From Patescibacteria group bacterium (GTDB lineage: Bacteria; Patescibacteriota; Minisyncoccia; Minisyncoccales; PEYH01), in NCBI GenBank assembly GCA_018817645.1, contig JAHITK010000002.1, forward strand, positions 1 through 47,103: a stretch of DNA of 47,103 nucleotides. The letters run 5' to 3'. This document shows, one piece after another, positions 22,168-44,191 of this stretch. The position numbers and the translations under genes are program-made. How positions within the stretch are numbered: the stretch's first letter is position 1; each line of letters starts with the position of its first letter. The notes beneath the pieces are model-generated. The model searched no databases. It worked only from the letters and a program-made list of their open reading frames with translations, and was not told where the DNA came from.

Positions 22168-23484
22168 TTAATCGCTTGCGATGCGGAGATTTGGTTCTGC
22201 TTTAATTTTATTCCAGTTTACCGCTTTTTCTCGGGGATTTAATTGGTAGGCGGCCATTGCTATCATAGCTGCGTTATCGGTGCATAATTTAGCATCCGAA
22301 ACAATCAAGTTGGCTCTTGAGTTGTATTCTTGAACCCTGTTCTCAAATTGTTTTCTTAATTCTTTGTTGGCAGCCACGCCTCCGCCGAGCATAATCGTCT
22401 TTGCTCTGTAATCCCCGGCTGCCTTAATGGTTTTTTTAATTAGAACATCAATAATTGATTGCTGGGCCTCTTTCGCCATTGCTTGAATGTATTCTTTCGA
22501 TTTTCTAATTTTAGGGCTTCTTTTTATGTAATCATACAATACTGCGGTTTTAAGTCCAGAAAAACTGAAATCATAATCTTTGGTATTGAGCATCGGCCGC
22601 GGCAATCTTATGTTTAATTTTGAATTTTGAATTTTGAATTTTGAATTGTTTTGGAATTTGGGATTTGGGATTTGGGATTTATATTGCTTGGCTTGTTGAG
22701 CAATGGCTGGCCCGCCGGGATAGCCGAGGCCGAGGATTCTCGCTATTTTGTCAAACGCTTCGCCCGCGGCATCATCTCTCGTCTCCCCTAATATTTTATA
22801 CTCCCCGATTTTTTTTGCCAAAATAATCTGCGTATGTCCACCGCTGACGATTAAGCATACCGCTGGCAAATCAATCTCGCTTCCGGTTTTCTGTTTCCTA
22901 TTTTTCGTTTTTTTTTGGATTTTGGATTTTGACACTGATTTGACATTTGGATTTTGACATTTGGATTTCTCGCCAATTTTTGCCAAAAAATTGGCGAAGA
23001 TATGCCCCTCAATATGATTAACCGGAATTATCGGCAGTTCCCACCAATAGGCGACCGCTCTGGCGAAGTTAACGCCAGTCCACAAACAAGGATCAAGACC
23101 AGGCCCCACTGTCACCGCAATATAATCAATTTTCGGCTTCTGATATTTCTCCAAGAACTTTATCAATTCTCCACAAAGAGCGGTTTCCCTATCAAGGATT
23201 TTTTTTATTATTTGGAATTTGGTGCTTGTGATTTGTTTGGAATTTGAAAATTGGGAATTGGAATTTCTAAGCAAATTTGCTTCCTTCAAAGCCCTTTTAA
23301 GCAAAGGAACCAAATTTGCTTGGTGTTCTCTTTTTGCGAGCGTCGGGTACACCCCTCCCCATTTTTTATGAATTTCCACTTGCGACGAGATGAGATTGGA
23401 TAACAATTTAAAATTTTTGGCAGAAGCGTCTGCCAAAGCAATACAAGTATCGTCGCAAGATGTTTCAACAGTCAATATCTTCAT
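22168..23484 (-). CDS. tsaD: tRNA N6-adenosine threonylcarbamoyltransferase with repeat-derived insertions
   Basis: 'ILTVETSCDDTCIAL', 'NHIEGHIFANF', 'LIVSGGHTQIIL', 'TMLGGGVAANKELR', 'CTDNAAMIA'; 438 aa, enlarged by N/Q/K-rich segments. Confidence 0.94.
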   Translation of the reverse strand: MKILTVETSCDDTCIALADASAKNFKLLSNLISSQVEIHKKWGGVYPTLAKREHQANLVPLLKRALKEANLLRNSNSQFSNSKQITSTKFQIIKKILDRETALCGELIKFLEKYQKPKIDYIAVTVGPGLDPCLWTGVNFARAVAYWWELPIIPVNHIEGHIFANFLAKIGEKSKCQNPNVKSVSKSKIQKKTKNRKQKTGSEIDLPAVCLIVSGGHTQIILAKKIGEYKILGETRDDAAGEAFDKIARILGLGYPGGPAIAQQAKQYKSQIPNPKFQNNSKFKIQNSKLNIRLPRPMLNTKDYDFSFSGLKTAVLYDYIKRSPKIRKSKEYIQAMAKEAQQSIIDVLIKKTIKAAGDYRAKTIMLGGGVAANKELRKQFENRVQEYNSRANLIVSDAKLCTDNAAMIAMAAYQLNPREKAVNWNKIKAEPNLRIASD

Positions 23485-23896: not shown

Positions 23897-25480
23897 ATGC
23901 CCGACAAATACTACCTTAGAATTGCCTTTGCGTCTGACTTGGAGAAAACAAGCGAGCGGATATTTTACCGCTTTTTAGAAATGTTGCCCGGCCTAATGAC
24001 TTGGCTAAGTTTTTTTGGCGTAATCCTATTGTCTTATTTCAGGCCTATCTGGGTCTCTGTTTTCATTATCGTTTTTGTCATATATTGGCTTTCCAAGACA
24101 ATGTATTTTTCATTCCATTTGAAAGCGAGTTACCGCCAGATGAAGCAACATAGAGAAATTGACTGGTTAGGCAAGCTGAATAAGCTTGGCGCCGCTTCCA
24201 ACGGATTACCGGTTCGTCATTGGCAGGAGATTTACCATTTAGTAGTACTGCCAATGTATAAAGAGCCGGATGAAGTGGTGAGGGATTCGCTAAAATCTCT
24301 TTTAGAGACCGATTACCCCAAAGACAGAATGATTGTCATCTTAGCCCAGGAAGAAAGGGCGGGAGACGACTTTAACAACAATTTGACGCAGAAGATAAGC
24401 CGGGAGTTTCAAAATAGTTTTTTCCGATTTTTTATTACCGTCCATCCAAAAGACCGGTCGGGTGAGATAGCGGCCAAGTCCTCAAATGAGACCTGGGCCG
24501 CTCGAACAGGCGAAGAACTAATCTCGGGGCTCAATATCCCTTTTGAAAAAGTTATCTTCTCGTCTTTTGATATTGATACCGTTGTTTCTCCCAACTACTT
24601 CAGCTGCCTTACTTATCACTATTTGACCACTCCAAAGCCATTGCGAACCAGCTTCCAGCCAATCCCTTTATTTTTAAACAATGTCTGGCAGGCCCCGGGG
24701 ATATCGAGAATTTTTTCTTTCTCTTCAAGTTTTTGGCATTTGACTAACCAGGAAAGGCCGGAAAAATTGATAACCTTTTCTTCTCACTCGATGCCCTTCA
24801 AGGCCTTGGTTGATGTGGGGTTTAAGCAGACCGATGTTGTTTCTGATGATTCGCGGATTTTTTGGCAATGCCTTTTTTATTACGATGGAGATTACCGCGT
24901 GGAGCCCCTGCACTGCCCCATATCTATGGATGCGAACGCCGCCGAAACCCTTCGCCGAACCCTTATTCATATGTATAAACAACAAAGAAGGTGGGCTTAT
25001 GGCGCGGCGGAAATCGCTTATTTTACTTTTGGGTTTTTGAAGAATAAAAAAATATCTTTCAAAAGAAAAATTGCCCTGGCCTTTGAAATTATAGAAGGGC
25101 AGTGGAATTGGGCCTGCGCCCCTATCCTTATTTTCGTGCTCGGCTGGCTGCCGGTTTATCTTGGAGGCGCGGAGTTTACCCAGACAATTTTTTCCTATAA
25201 TCTGCCAAAAATACTCGGCAGAATCCTTGCTGTTTCTATGTTGGGTTTGGTTATGTCAATGTATTACACCTTTTATCTTCTCCCTCCCAAACCGGACACC
25301 AAAAGGCAGAAATTAAATCTTTTATGGGCGTGTTCTCAATGGATATTACTGCCGTTTACAATGATATTTTTTGTCGCTCTGCCGGCGATAGATGCTCAGA
25401 CAAGATTACTCTTGGGGAAATATATGGGATTCTGGCCCACTCCGAAACATAGGAAAGCAATTAAGCAACCAAGCAATTAA
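23897..25480 (+). CDS. family 2-like membrane glycosyltransferase
   Basis: 'YHLVVLPMYKEPDEVVRDSLKSLLETDYPKDRMIVILAQEER...FSSFDIDTVV...MYKQQRRWAYG' plus TM helices; start chosen at MPDKYYLR. Confidence 0.85.
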   Translation: MPDKYYLRIAFASDLEKTSERIFYRFLEMLPGLMTWLSFFGVILLSYFRPIWVSVFIIVFVIYWLSKTMYFSFHLKASYRQMKQHREIDWLGKLNKLGAASNGLPVRHWQEIYHLVVLPMYKEPDEVVRDSLKSLLETDYPKDRMIVILAQEERAGDDFNNNLTQKISREFQNSFFRFFITVHPKDRSGEIAAKSSNETWAARTGEELISGLNIPFEKVIFSSFDIDTVVSPNYFSCLTYHYLTTPKPLRTSFQPIPLFLNNVWQAPGISRIFSFSSSFWHLTNQERPEKLITFSSHSMPFKALVDVGFKQTDVVSDDSRIFWQCLFYYDGDYRVEPLHCPISMDANAAETLRRTLIHMYKQQRRWAYGAAEIAYFTFGFLKNKKISFKRKIALAFEIIEGQWNWACAPILIFVLGWLPVYLGGAEFTQTIFSYNLPKILGRILAVSMLGLVMSMYYTFYLLPPKPDTKRQKLNLLWACSQWILLPFTMIFFVALPAIDAQTRLLLGKYMGFWPTPKHRKAIKQPSN

Positions 25481-25507
25481 ACAACTAAGCAACTAAACAA
25501 CTAAACA
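25456..25507. repeat. period-8 AT-rich tandem array (AAGCAATT / AAACAACT)
   Basis: AAGCAATT AAGCAACC AAGCAATT AAACAACT AAGCAACT AAACAACT AAACATG. Confidence 0.8.
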
Positions 25508-37398: not shown

Positions 37399-38256
37399 AT
37401 GATTATTTATTGTTTATTAATTTTTATATTCGGTCTTATTGTGGGTTCGTTTTTAAATTGCGCAATTTACCGACTGGAAAAAAAAGAGAGTTTTTTGCAA
37501 GGCCGGTCGTATTGCCCTCATTGTAAGCGTGCTTTGGCGTGGTGCGATTTAGTTCCGTTAATCAGTTTTATTGCCTTAAAGCGCCGCTGTCGGTATTGTA
37601 AAAAACCGATCTCCTGGCAGTATCCCTTGGTAGAATTAGCCACAGGCATCTTGTTTGTTTCAATTTTTTGGCATTTGTCATTGGGATTTGATTTGTCATT
37701 TGGATTTTGTCATTTGGATTTTTTAACTATTCTTTATTATCTGTTGATTGCCTGTTTTTTAATTGTTATTTTTGTCTACGACCTCAAGCATTTTATTATT
37801 CTGGACAAGGTTTTGATTCCAGCCATCATATTATCAATTTTCTATCGCCCCCTTGAATCAATTATCAATTATCAATTATCACCTGCCCGCATTGCTACGC
37901 AAAGCGTTGTAGGCGGGCAAAGCGTTGCAGGCGGGATCATCAATTATCTTTGCGCCGCCTTTGGAGCGGCCGGCCTTTTTCTTTTAATATATTTAATTTC
38001 CAGAGGGAAGTGGATTGGATTCGCCGATATTAAGTTGGCAATGCTTTTGGGCTTGATCCTGGGCTGGCCCAAGATAGCCCTGTCTTTGTTTTTAAGTTTT
38101 TTCATCGGTGCTATAATAGGAATAGGCCTGATAGTTTTCTCGGGCAAAAAGCTTAAAAGCGAAATTCCGTTTGCCCCATTTCTGATAGCAGGCACATTGA
38201 TTGCCTTTTTTTGGGGGCAAGGCCTGATTAACTGGTATTTTTCTTTGATTTTTTAA
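37399..38256 (+). CDS. pilD: prepilin peptidase PilD (A24 family)
   Basis: 'GSFLNCAIYRL', CPHC...CRYC zinc motif, 'DLKHFIILDKVLIPAIIL', 'GFADIKLAMLLGLILGW'. Confidence 0.93.
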   Translation: MIIYCLLIFIFGLIVGSFLNCAIYRLEKKESFLQGRSYCPHCKRALAWCDLVPLISFIALKRRCRYCKKPISWQYPLVELATGILFVSIFWHLSLGFDLSFGFCHLDFLTILYYLLIACFLIVIFVYDLKHFIILDKVLIPAIILSIFYRPLESIINYQLSPARIATQSVVGGQSVAGGIINYLCAAFGAAGLFLLIYLISRGKWIGFADIKLAMLLGLILGWPKIALSLFLSFFIGAIIGIGLIVFSGKKLKSEIPFAPFLIAGTLIAFFWGQGLINWYFSLIF

Positions 38257-40536: not shown

Positions 40537-42613
40537 CGAATATTTTATTATTATGATGGATAAGGAGTCCGCAAAAAAGAGGATAGAAAAACTCAAAAAG
40601 GTGATTAATTATCACCGTTATTTATATCACGTCTTAGATAAGCAGGAAATTTCTGATTCTGCCTTGGACTCGTTAAAAAATGAACTTGTCGGGCTGGAGG
40701 AGCAATATCCGGAATTGATTACCCCTGATTCTCCGAGCCAGCGAGTCGGAGGAAAACCGTTGGATAAGTTCGAAAAAATACAACATCGGGTTCCAATGCT
40801 TTCAATTGACGATATTTTTGACAGAGAAACGCTTGAGTCCTGGGAAAAATACTTAAAAAAATTACAGCCATTGGAAAAGTTTGAGTATTTTTGCGAGCCG
40901 AAAATTGACGGATTTGCGATAACATTGATTTATGATAGGGGTATTTTAGTGACCGGAGCTACTAGGGGAGACGGGAGAATCGGAGAGAATGTAACGCAGA
41001 ACATAAAGACCATAAACAGCATTCCGTTAGAACTGGAGATTCACCGACCCATTGAAGATAAAAACATTGAAGATAATTTAAAAGAAAGGATAAAAAATGG
41101 GCGGATGGAGATAAGAGGGGAAGTATATATGGATAAGGCGTCATTTGATAAAATTAACAAACAGAGGATTAAAAACAAAGAATCTGTCTACGCTAATCCC
41201 AGAAATTTGGCAGCCGGCTCAATCCGCCAACTCGACCCTAAATTAGCCGCTTCGCGGGGATTAAGGTTTTTGGCTTACGATTTAGTATCCGATATGTCAT
41301 CCGATACCTCTACCGATATGGGAATTACCACTCATTCTGCGGAACACGAGGTGCTTTCCTGCCTTGGATTTAGGATCGAAAAAGGTAAAATCTGTAAAAA
41401 TATAGAGCAGGTAGTCAATTTTTGGGAGAAAACCCAAAAAAACAGGGATATTTTGCCTTTTCAGGTAGATGGCGTAGTGGTTTTGGTTAATAATAATCAA
41501 ATTCTTGATAAATTGGGTGTTATTGGCAAAAGTCCGCGAGGGATAAGGGCCTTTAAGTTCTTGGCCAAGCAGGCGACGACCAAAGTCAGAGACATAAAGG
41601 TGCAAGTCGGCAGAACTGGCGCCATTACGCCTGTAGCGATATTAGAGCCGGTCAAAATTGAAGGAGCTACTATTACCAGAGCCACCCTGCATAACGAAGA
41701 TGAATTAAAGAGATTAGGAGTGAAGATCGGCGATACGGTTATTATAGAAAGAGCTGGGGATGTTATCCCAGCCGTTTCAACGGTTTTGAAGGATTTAAGA
41801 GACGGCAAAGAAAAGGCCTTTAATTTTCCTCGTAAATGTCCGGTTTGCGGCCGGGAATTAGTCAGACCCAAAGATGAGGTTATTTGGAGGTGCGAGAATC
41901 ATAATTGCCCGGCCCGGAAAAGAGAATTTTTAGAGCATTTCGTGTCAAAAAAGGCCTTTAATATTGAAGGATTGGGGCCTAAAATTATTGAGCAATTGAA
42001 TATAAACGGATTAGTGAGCCAGCCCTTGGATTTCTTTGAGTTAAAACAGGGTGATTTGATGCCATTAGAAAGGTTTGCCGAAAAATCGGCTGATAATTTA
42101 ATTACCGAGATTCAACATCGAAAAAACATACCGCTAAACCGCTTTATTTATTCTTTAGGAATACGCCATACAGGCGAAGAAACAGCTCTTGATTTGGCGG
42201 TTCATTTTAAGACGCTGGAGAAATTAGCCAAGGCCTCTATCACAGAGCTTGAGTTTGTCCCTGATATTGGAGAGAAGGTGGCAGAAAGCATATACCATTG
42301 GTTTAATAGTAAAAATAACCGCGTGTTTTTAGATAAAATTTTGCGCGCTGGAATTACTATCTCTCCATTGCCAGAAAGGGGAAATAAGCTGTTATCAGGA
42401 AAGAGCTTTGTAATAACCGGCGTACTTGAGAATATGTCGCGGGATAAGGCCCGGGCCCGCATATGGGAATTAGGGGGAAGCGCCTCCGATTCAGTGAGTA
42501 AAAACACTAATTTTTTAGTGTCTGGAAAGAATCCGGGCAGCAAATTAAGCAAAGCAAGAGAACTGGGCGTCAAAATTATATCAGAAGAAGAATTCCTTAA
42601 AATGATAAAATGA
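40529..42613 (+). CDS. ligA: NAD-dependent DNA ligase LigA (true start probably MDKES, about 40556)
   Basis: 'YFCEPKIDGFAITLIYDRG', zinc finger CPVCGRELVRPKDEVIWRCENHNCPA, HhH and BRCT domains. Confidence 0.96.
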   Translation: MVNEYFIIMMDKESAKKRIEKLKKVINYHRYLYHVLDKQEISDSALDSLKNELVGLEEQYPELITPDSPSQRVGGKPLDKFEKIQHRVPMLSIDDIFDRETLESWEKYLKKLQPLEKFEYFCEPKIDGFAITLIYDRGILVTGATRGDGRIGENVTQNIKTINSIPLELEIHRPIEDKNIEDNLKERIKNGRMEIRGEVYMDKASFDKINKQRIKNKESVYANPRNLAAGSIRQLDPKLAASRGLRFLAYDLVSDMSSDTSTDMGITTHSAEHEVLSCLGFRIEKGKICKNIEQVVNFWEKTQKNRDILPFQVDGVVVLVNNNQILDKLGVIGKSPRGIRAFKFLAKQATTKVRDIKVQVGRTGAITPVAILEPVKIEGATITRATLHNEDELKRLGVKIGDTVIIERAGDVIPAVSTVLKDLRDGKEKAFNFPRKCPVCGRELVRPKDEVIWRCENHNCPARKREFLEHFVSKKAFNIEGLGPKIIEQLNINGLVSQPLDFFELKQGDLMPLERFAEKSADNLITEIQHRKNIPLNRFIYSLGIRHTGEETALDLAVHFKTLEKLAKASITELEFVPDIGEKVAESIYHWFNSKNNRVFLDKILRAGITISPLPERGNKLLSGKSFVITGVLENMSRDKARARIWELGGSASDSVSKNTNFLVSGKNPGSKLSKARELGVKIISEEEFLKMIK

Positions 42614-43710
42614 CGATTATCAGTTATTTCAAGAAGTTTGATTGGCCCCTTGTCTTAACAGCAATTATCCTGACCGGTATCGGTCTTTTGTCGTTGTACA
42701 GCTCATCATTAGGCATAGTGGGCAGTTTTTTAAACTTCAATAAACAGCTCATATTTTTGGGCGTCGGATTAACGCTAATGATAATACTTTCTTTTGTTGA
42801 TTATCGGGGTCTAAAAGACAATTCTTATCTTATTCTTGTCTTTTACGCATTAGGCATTATAGCTCTGATTGGCTTGTTAGTTTTTAATAATCCCATAAGA
42901 GGAGTAAGGAGTTGGTATAAGATAGGGCAGGCGGCGATTGCGCCCGTAGAATTCCTGAAAATAGTTATAATAGCTCTTTTGGCAAAGTATTTTTCCGCCC
43001 GCCATGTGGAGATGTATAAGTTTCGTCATATTATTCTATCAGGCCTATACATCGCCCTCCCCGTGTTTTTAGTGTTTCTCCAGCCCGATGTCGGCTCTGT
43101 TTTGGTGCTGATTTTTCTATGGATTGGCATCTTAGCGGTTTCCGGAATTCATTTGCGCCATTTTTTAATTTTGTCCCTTTGCGGCCTTATATTATTCGTA
43201 TTTGCTTGGGGTTTTCTGTTAAGAGATTATCAAAAAGAAAGAGTTATAAGCTTTGTTTTGCCCGATTATGAGCCATTGCAGGCGGGATGGAATCAAAGAC
43301 AGACCAAAATAGCCATCGGGAACGGAGGAATTATCGGGAGGGGCGTGGGTAATGGTTCTCAAACGCAGCAAGGGTTTTTGCCAGAGCCCCAGACCGATTT
43401 TATCTTTTCGGCGATCGCCGAAGAATTTGGGTTTTTAGCCATAATAGGCATTATTCTTTTATTCCTTGTTTTCTTTTGGCGCGTAACGAGCATTGCTTTG
43501 CGCGCAGACAATAATTTTTCTCGCCTTTTTGCTTTAGGGGTCGGGTTTGTTGTAATCGCCCAATTTTTTATAAATATTGGGAGCAATATCGGTTATTTGC
43601 CGGTAATCGGGGTGCCTTTGCCTTTTATAAGCTATGGAGGTTCTTTTCTGATCGCGATGTTTATCGCAATAGGCATTCTCCAGAATATAAAAATCGACTC
43701 AACGACTTAA
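42610..43710 (+). CDS. FtsW/RodA/SpoVE family SEDS protein
   Basis: 'LQPDVGSVLVLIFLWIG', 'GGIIGRGVGNGSQTQQGFLPEPQTDFIFSAIAEEFG', 'PVIGVPLPFISYGGSFL'. Confidence 0.94.
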   Translation: MTIISYFKKFDWPLVLTAIILTGIGLLSLYSSSLGIVGSFLNFNKQLIFLGVGLTLMIILSFVDYRGLKDNSYLILVFYALGIIALIGLLVFNNPIRGVRSWYKIGQAAIAPVEFLKIVIIALLAKYFSARHVEMYKFRHIILSGLYIALPVFLVFLQPDVGSVLVLIFLWIGILAVSGIHLRHFLILSLCGLILFVFAWGFLLRDYQKERVISFVLPDYEPLQAGWNQRQTKIAIGNGGIIGRGVGNGSQTQQGFLPEPQTDFIFSAIAEEFGFLAIIGIILLFLVFFWRVTSIALRADNNFSRLFALGVGFVVIAQFFINIGSNIGYLPVIGVPLPFISYGGSFLIAMFIAIGILQNIKIDSTT

Positions 43711-43751
43711 CAATTAAGCAAATAAGCAAGTAAGCGATTAAGCAATTAAAT
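43711..43751. repeat. left inverted repeat of IVP-like element (period-8 AAGCAATT array)
   Basis: CAATTAAGCAAATAAGCAAGTAAGCGATTAAGCAATTAAAT; about 36/44 positions match the reverse complement of the right repeat by manual alignment. Confidence 0.8.
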
Positions 43752-44111
43752 ATGGGTAAAGAGAATTTCTTTAGCGACTTGAAGCAAAAAGCGGATGAGT
43801 ATGTTCATTTGGTTTATAAGATTACCAAGCATTTTCCTAAAGAGGAAATGTATGGAGTAAGTTCCCAAACAAGAAGAGCAACCTTATCAATTATTCTCAA
43901 TTATATTGAAGGTTTTGCCCGGCAGAGAATGGCGGTTAGGCGGAATTTTTGGCAAATTTCATACGGTTCTTTGAAAGAATCAAAATATCTCCTAAACTTT
44001 TCGTTAATTGAGGGATATCTTAGCCAAGAGGAATATGATAAAGCAATTGCGTTGGCTGAAGAGATTGGAGCAATGCTTTGGACCGTCCTTCAGTCCATAA
44101 AGAGCAGTTAG
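43752..44111 (+). CDS. four-helix-bundle protein, 23S rRNA intervening-sequence protein (S23/IVP) family-like
   Basis: 'KADEYVHLVYKITKHFPKEEMYGVSSQTRRATLSIILNYIEGFARQ...FWQISYGSLKESKYLLNFSLIEGYLSQEEY' matches the IVP family pattern. Confidence 0.9.
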   Translation: MGKENFFSDLKQKADEYVHLVYKITKHFPKEEMYGVSSQTRRATLSIILNYIEGFARQRMAVRRNFWQISYGSLKESKYLLNFSLIEGYLSQEEYDKAIALAEEIGAMLWTVLQSIKSS

Positions 44112-44126
44112 CAACAGCCAAACAAC

Positions 44127-44171
44127 TAATATTTTAATTGTTTATATGCTTAATTGCTTATATGTTTAATT
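44127..44171. repeat. right inverted repeat of IVP-like element
   Basis: TAATATTTTAATTGTTTATATGCTTAATTGCTTATATGTTTAATTG, complementary to 43711-43751 with mismatches. Confidence 0.8.
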
Positions 44172-44191
44172 GAGTTTGAGTTATCCACAAT

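Follow-up and report, generated by a model that had tools for sequence, protein, structure and literature searches.

Among the closest described systems to the element reported here are the intervening sequences (IVSs) of 23S rRNA, of which that of Coxiella comprises 428 nt with a 28-bp stem (PMC4990558). Open reading frames (ORFs) encoding the same protein family, S23 or IVP, occur in rRNA insertions of CPR bacteria (PMC11270868), and structural homology between entries 4DWL and 2GSC has been noted (PMC10053308). Outside rRNA, the pertinent passages of PMC3936711 describe 23S_rRNA_IVP as a function encountered in cas loci, with flanking repeats unmentioned in those passages. For intergenic heptamer repeats, possible carriage by a mobile element has been suggested (PMC4679880). 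Here we describe an S23 gene enclosed by inverted arrays of a short unit, located between protein-coding genes in a 47,103-nucleotide stretch of DNA from a Patescibacteria group bacterium (the window). The open-access literature that we searched holds no earlier description of a stand-alone S23 cassette with inverted arrays; the novelty is provisional, as subscription literature lay outside the search.

An S23 gene enclosed by inverted arrays downstream of rodA

Profile searches assign the single ORF of the cassette (Table 1) to the S23 family, with matches to PF05635 (E 2e-26; 92.7 bits against a curated cut-off of 33.8) and TIGR02436 (E 1.3e-25; 89.7 bits against 24), which bears out the proposal of an earlier note, made from the sequence of this DNA, that an IVP-like four-helix-bundle gene resides here. 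The bAvd profile PF22296 also matches the protein (E 1.2e-8), and a phmmer search identified structure 2GSC, an entry with five chains whose title refers to five four-helix bundles. Four helices are predicted for the monomer by a single-sequence model of modest confidence (pLDDT 65). We know of no catalytic activity of S23 proteins, and neither the ORF list nor the profile search revealed a transposase or recombinase within the cassette. Among pairs of S23 genes with unsaturated dS, dN/dS lies between 0.06 and 0.16, showing that these genes are under purifying selection.

Table 1. Coordinates of the cassette and related features in the window
Feature	Position	Strand	Evidence
Complete cassette: S23 gene with an inverted array on each side, located between rodA and the following gene	43711..44172	+	
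Left arm: degenerate period-8 array with a unit close to AAGCAATT; its first base directly follows the rodA stop	43711..43750	+	TRF; pairs with 44133-44172
S23 / 23S_rRNA_IVP four-helix-bundle protein, 119 aa	43752..44111	+	PF05635, bAvd and TIGR02436 matches
Right arm: left-arm unit array, inverted	44133..44172	+	IR scan, TRF
Upstream gene, SEDS/RodA family	42610..43710	+	PF01098 E 5e-84, TIGR02210 E 1e-98
Array of AAGCAATT/AACAACTA-type units lacking an S23 gene	25455..25507	+	

The two arms differ at 7 of 40 positions in their best ungapped pairing, and tandem repeat analysis (TRF) recovers a period of 8 on both sides, with 5.5 copies over 43707-43749 on the left. The architecture that the earlier note had described, an inverted-repeat unit of period-8 arrays between the SEDS gene and the next gene that begins directly after the rodA stop codon, is thus borne out. 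Of the span that it had given (43711-44171), the left end holds and the right end is moved by one nucleotide. When 590 kb of the source genome were block-shuffled, the same inverted-repeat scan found no repeats scoring at least 17; this control is approximate, as it preserves non-overlapping dinucleotides within 300-bp blocks. As the earlier note had anticipated, the terminal repeats are able to form a stem that encloses the ORF: in the predicted fold of the RNA from 43700-44185, a terminal stem closes a loop that contains the ORF (MFE -131.8, z -4.81), and none of 100 shuffled sequences folds as well.

S23 genes in many phyla are bracketed by matched arms

The source genome (665 kb, 28 contigs) contains four S23 genes, all of which possess inverted-array arms built from a different unit at each locus, the units at the three further loci being approximately ATATCGAA, AAAATGA and AAATCCA. 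Two loci of the same order are identical to records named as Patescibacteria/Staskawiczbacteria, in keeping with a patescibacterial source. Among 159 S23 loci from many phyla, matched inverted arms (score at least 15) occur at 50-66% of loci per group, compared with 2-5% of control genes, and most arms consist of arrayed 7-8 bp units; because the named loci were the top matches to a single query family, these percentages do not constitute a census. The repeat-ORF-repeat unit sought in the earlier note at other loci, and the conservation of its arms around homologous ORFs, are therefore observed far beyond the window. About a third to half of the S23 genes have no arms detectable at the threshold used.

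Median arm scores for S23 genes exceed those for control genes (genes of 80-250 aa from S23 loci or the genome, with scores of 8.5-9) in the same order (17 versus 9, p 5e-35), in other Patescibacteria (14.5 versus 8.5, p 1.5e-8) and outside Patescibacteria (17 versus 8.5, p 1.6e-11). Arms also match their own partner far better than arms of other loci, with the own-locus match above the 99th percentile at 39 of 85 distinct loci of the same order (median 17 versus 9) and at 29 of 49 non-Patescibacteria loci among the 80 named loci, which were retrieved by protein pattern. In a later batch, 12 of 21 loci exceed the 95th percentile. Arrays of period 7 or 8 are present in 114 of 170 S23 flanks and 90 of 1393 other windows in the same order, and in 52 of 96 flanks versus 23 of 856 other windows outside Patescibacteria. 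At loci chosen for S23, 76 of the 95 genes bracketed by matched arms are S23 genes, and four of the remainder are of the Y1/RAYT type. The cassettes measure about 0.45-0.9 kb, with about 3-8 units per arm. We considered whether arms carry five units, matching a pentamer; we make no such claim, because the peak near 4.7 units is set in part by the score threshold and arrays away from S23 share the same median. A single query returned no S23 match in phages.

Two properties tie arms and gene together. On the S23 coding strand, the left arm is rich in AG, with AG exceeding CT at 83 loci and the reverse at 20, a polarity that could simply be a Shine-Dalgarno supply for S23. In addition, the 4-mer content of the arms covaries with S23 protein identity (Mantel r 0.32, and 0.45 within the order; p at most 0.0005), including when the comparison is limited to cross-phylum pairs, with within-phylum permutation of the arms (r 0.23 versus a null of 0.03 +/- 0.04; p at most 0.0005). 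For example, AGGCACA-like units are common to loci from Nitrospirae (L228), Desulfobacteraceae (L210) and Niastella (L233), whose proteins are about 60-65% identical. This covariation is co-inheritance of unit and protein; binding of one by the other may be inferred from it. Since the arms accompany the gene across phyla and keep a constant polarity, they are part of the cassette.

Full, arms-only and empty sites

Comparison of orthologous sites reveals the cassette in several states. At the rodA site of three congeners, G000 carries arms and S23, G008 (RodA 85% identical) has both arms and no S23, and G009 has neither. At the end of the ligase gene, a cassette is present in G000, and G008 lacks arms as well as gene; together with the covariation, this indicates that the inverted ends travel with the internal S23 gene. 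Upstream of rpoB, a cassette is present in G000; the site has an array hairpin in G007, a short array in G008 and a remnant of the right arm in G009. In cyanobacterial plasmids, the cas10-cmr3 spacer holds an S23 cassette in PCC 7003 and is empty in PCC 7002, and the cas6-cas4 spacers of Anabaena sp. 90 and Pseudanabaena galeata contain cassettes with different arms that are absent from relatives. The search for empty sites that the earlier note had recommended was therefore productive, and its view of a stand-alone unit outside rRNA is strongly sustained, since matched arms occur in many phyla and orthologous sites are full, arms-only or empty.

None of the compared pairs of near-identical genomes displays a clean-junction event. 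The empty site of an Anabaena/Dolichospermum pair with 98.8% identity holds another repeat, and the PCC 7003/7002 pair is locally divergent at the cassette site; no target duplication is readable at empty sites that are this diverged or filled. The cas6-cas4 spacer that is the cassette site of Anabaena sp. 90 is occupied in Dolichospermum UHCC 0315A by a hairpin repeat of another kind, GTAGGTTGGGTT...AACCCAACCTAC (L250, 1232-1478). Cassette copies on a pair of Calothrix plasmids were rejected as a transposition pair because the identical block of about 1.3 kb extends past the cassette. Amplification within genomes was likewise discarded, as S23 copies that share a genome proved to be nearest relatives in just 3 of 47 cases; their descent from different lineages argues for horizontal arrival rather than local amplification.

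Cassettes lie in sense orientation between cistrons. Using gene calls by longest ORF, we found the upstream gene co-oriented with S23 at 143 of 153 loci (background 78%) and both neighbours co-oriented at 128 of 153, with median distances of 3 nt between the upstream stop codon and the left arm and of 12 nt between the right arm and the start codon that follows. Such placement can reflect either an insertion preference or survival, that is, survivor bias. In two congeners (L050, 2683-4380; L029, 745-1266), genes judged by eye to be NYN-like, accompanied at L050 by genes judged in the same way to be MNT/HEPN-like, lie directly upstream of S23 cassettes. At one locus (L108, G160:C7), three S23 genes of different lineages occur within about 2.5 kb, which suggests a preferred landing region. 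Elsewhere (L254, G079:C1:837800-842800), one of eight near-identical copies of an IS200-like element lies at the outer end of the left arm of an S23 cassette; comparison with the other seven copies shows that the IS landed beside the arm, which disposes of the idea that S23 lies inside an IS200 copy.

Proposed mechanism and alternative explanations

We consider it probable that these elements are horizontally moving DNA cassettes, with cognate sites for an S23 pentamer arrayed in inverted orientation at their ends. The window element would be one member of a widespread group of small cassettes, each with a single S23-family gene and with a unit that varies by lineage. A pentameric S23 protein may bind several copies of its own unit at each end, in the way that a transposase engages terminal repeats, and would thereby act as a binding or synapsis factor, with cutting and joining presumably performed by host or trans-acting enzymes. 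Spread would occur chiefly between genomes, into spacers between cistrons and in the sense orientation, so that both reading frames are kept intact, and loss of the S23 gene could leave an arms-only hairpin.

An alternative that we regard as unlikely, though the least so of those considered, is that the arms function as a transcript stem, with cleavage by RNase III freeing the S23 ORF from a polycistronic mRNA in the manner of an IVS. The stable terminal stem around the window ORF, the sense orientation of cassettes inside operons, the protein family and size shared with the Coxiella IVS (PMC4990558) and the IVP ORFs of rRNA insertions in CPR bacteria (PMC11270868) are all consistent with such a role. 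However, mismatches between arms comprise 114 G-U and 98 A-C pairs (p 0.30), with subsets tending in opposite directions, and the similarity between arms does not exceed that between units within an arm. A register-specific palindrome, which appeared strong at first, vanished against this fair within-arm comparison. The 23S core motif (helix 69, three mismatches allowed) does not occur in any S23 locus screened. Because there is no consistent excess of G-U over A-C and arm-to-arm similarity stays at the within-arm level, selection on an RNA stem is not evident, and the IVS-type action envisaged in the earlier note finds no backing; inverted arrays of a repeated DNA-level site fit better than a conserved RNA stem.

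We judge it rather improbable that the arrays are dispersed repeats, similar to REP or Rickettsia palindromes, in whose pre-existing hairpins S23 genes land or are captured. The source genome holds 138 period-7/8 arrays in 590 kb, some of them hairpins without S23; arms-only states occur at the rodA site of G008 and the rpoB site of G007; and arrays away from S23 resemble S23 arms of other genomes more often than unit-permuted controls do (35 versus 17 of 81; 28 versus 7 of 50). The possibility raised in the earlier note, that octamer arrays are found everywhere and unrelated to IVP genes, applies only in part: arrays are common in the source genome but 10- to 20-fold enriched beside S23 genes. 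Further arguments against this alternative are the constant polarity of the arms, their covariation with the protein across phyla, the rarity of arrays away from S23 outside Patescibacteria, and the ligase site, where the relative lacks arms together with the gene. The arms-only arrays of Patescibacteria are nevertheless compatible with the arrays having come first.

Array hairpins without S23 occur at L024 (14698), L042 (12821), L044 (16084) and L051 (12345), with an AAATCC-type unit that also builds the arms of the rpoB-site cassette. Heptamer arrays are found within ORFs as well, including tsaD (22605-22680, 22905-22968 and 23210-23266) and a prepilin-peptidase-like ORF (37660-37725) in the window, rpoB in L024, and L007 (1509-2825), and these add KIQNPKSK-like stretches to TsaD and other proteins. 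They resemble the Rickettsia palindromic elements within coding genes.

It is improbable, in our estimation, that a Y1/HUH transposase of the RAYT or IS200 type moves the S23 cassette in trans. The source genome has four Y1 genes, apart from S23, Y1 genes are the family that recurs between matched arms, and Y1_Tnp matches are present in 67 of 90 genomes with S23 and 34 of 106 without (Fisher p 3e-9, uncorrected for genome size, which confounds the association). On the other hand, 23 genomes with S23 contain no Y1 match, and S23 arms are unlike the GC-rich REP palindromes beside Y1 genes. DDE transposases were too rare to serve as a control. Four Y1/RAYT-like transposase genes (L040, L043, L045 and L049) have their own GC-rich flanking palindromes, with further copies nearby.

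Retro-mobility through a reverse transcriptase (RT), suggested by homology of S23 to bAvd, which serves diversity-generating retroelements (profile match; PMC10053308), is very improbable, as the source genome has four cassettes and no PF00078 match (E at most 1e-5), and RT presence is unrelated to S23 (32 of 90 genomes with S23 versus 34 of 106 without, p 0.65).

Mobile cassettes would provide a likely identity for the widespread S23/IVP family, and could help to interpret both the S23 genes of cas operons and many intergenic heptamer repeats. Because the unit tracks the protein, a direct test of binding is possible.

Comparison with known systems

The S23 protein and bAvd are homologous four-helix bundles; unlike in bAvd systems, neither an RT nor template and variable repeats were identified here. 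The 23S_rRNA_IVP genes in cas loci (PMC3936711) lie between cmr2 and cmr3 or near cas4 and cas6, as do the S23 genes of the cyanobacterial plasmids compared here; the latter belong to cassettes bounded by inverted arrays, which relatives lack at the same site. The heptamer repeats of cyanobacteria and Beggiatoaceae (STRR, TAACTGA; PMC4679880) are also intergenic tandem 7-bp units, but are described as direct repeats, with no S23 link and no inverted pairs around a gene. RAYT genes and their REP sequences (REPINs) share with S23 cassettes a gene flanked by palindromic repeats and further gene-less repeat copies in the genome. However, a RAYT is a Y1 HUH nuclease with GC-rich hairpins, whereas S23 lacks a nuclease domain, is not a Y1 protein by profile search and has inverted arrays as arms, and the Y1 genes of the source genome carry different repeats.

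The 23S rRNA IVSs of Leptospira and Coxiella are similar in protein family, in having one small ORF enclosed by inverted repeats and in their sporadic horizontal distribution. S23 cassettes differ from them in lying between protein-coding genes and in having arms that are tandem arrays of 7-8 bp units, vary by protein clade and bear no RNA-pairing signature that we could find. We tentatively propose, as a possibility that we hold with less assurance than the cassette model itself, that these elements form a class of minimal mobile cassettes that is pan-bacterial and was not described before. In such cassettes, a pentameric four-helix-bundle protein with no enzymatic activity would recognise lineage-specific 7-8 bp units in inverted arrays at both ends, and the rRNA IVSs might be a special case that landed in rRNA genes.
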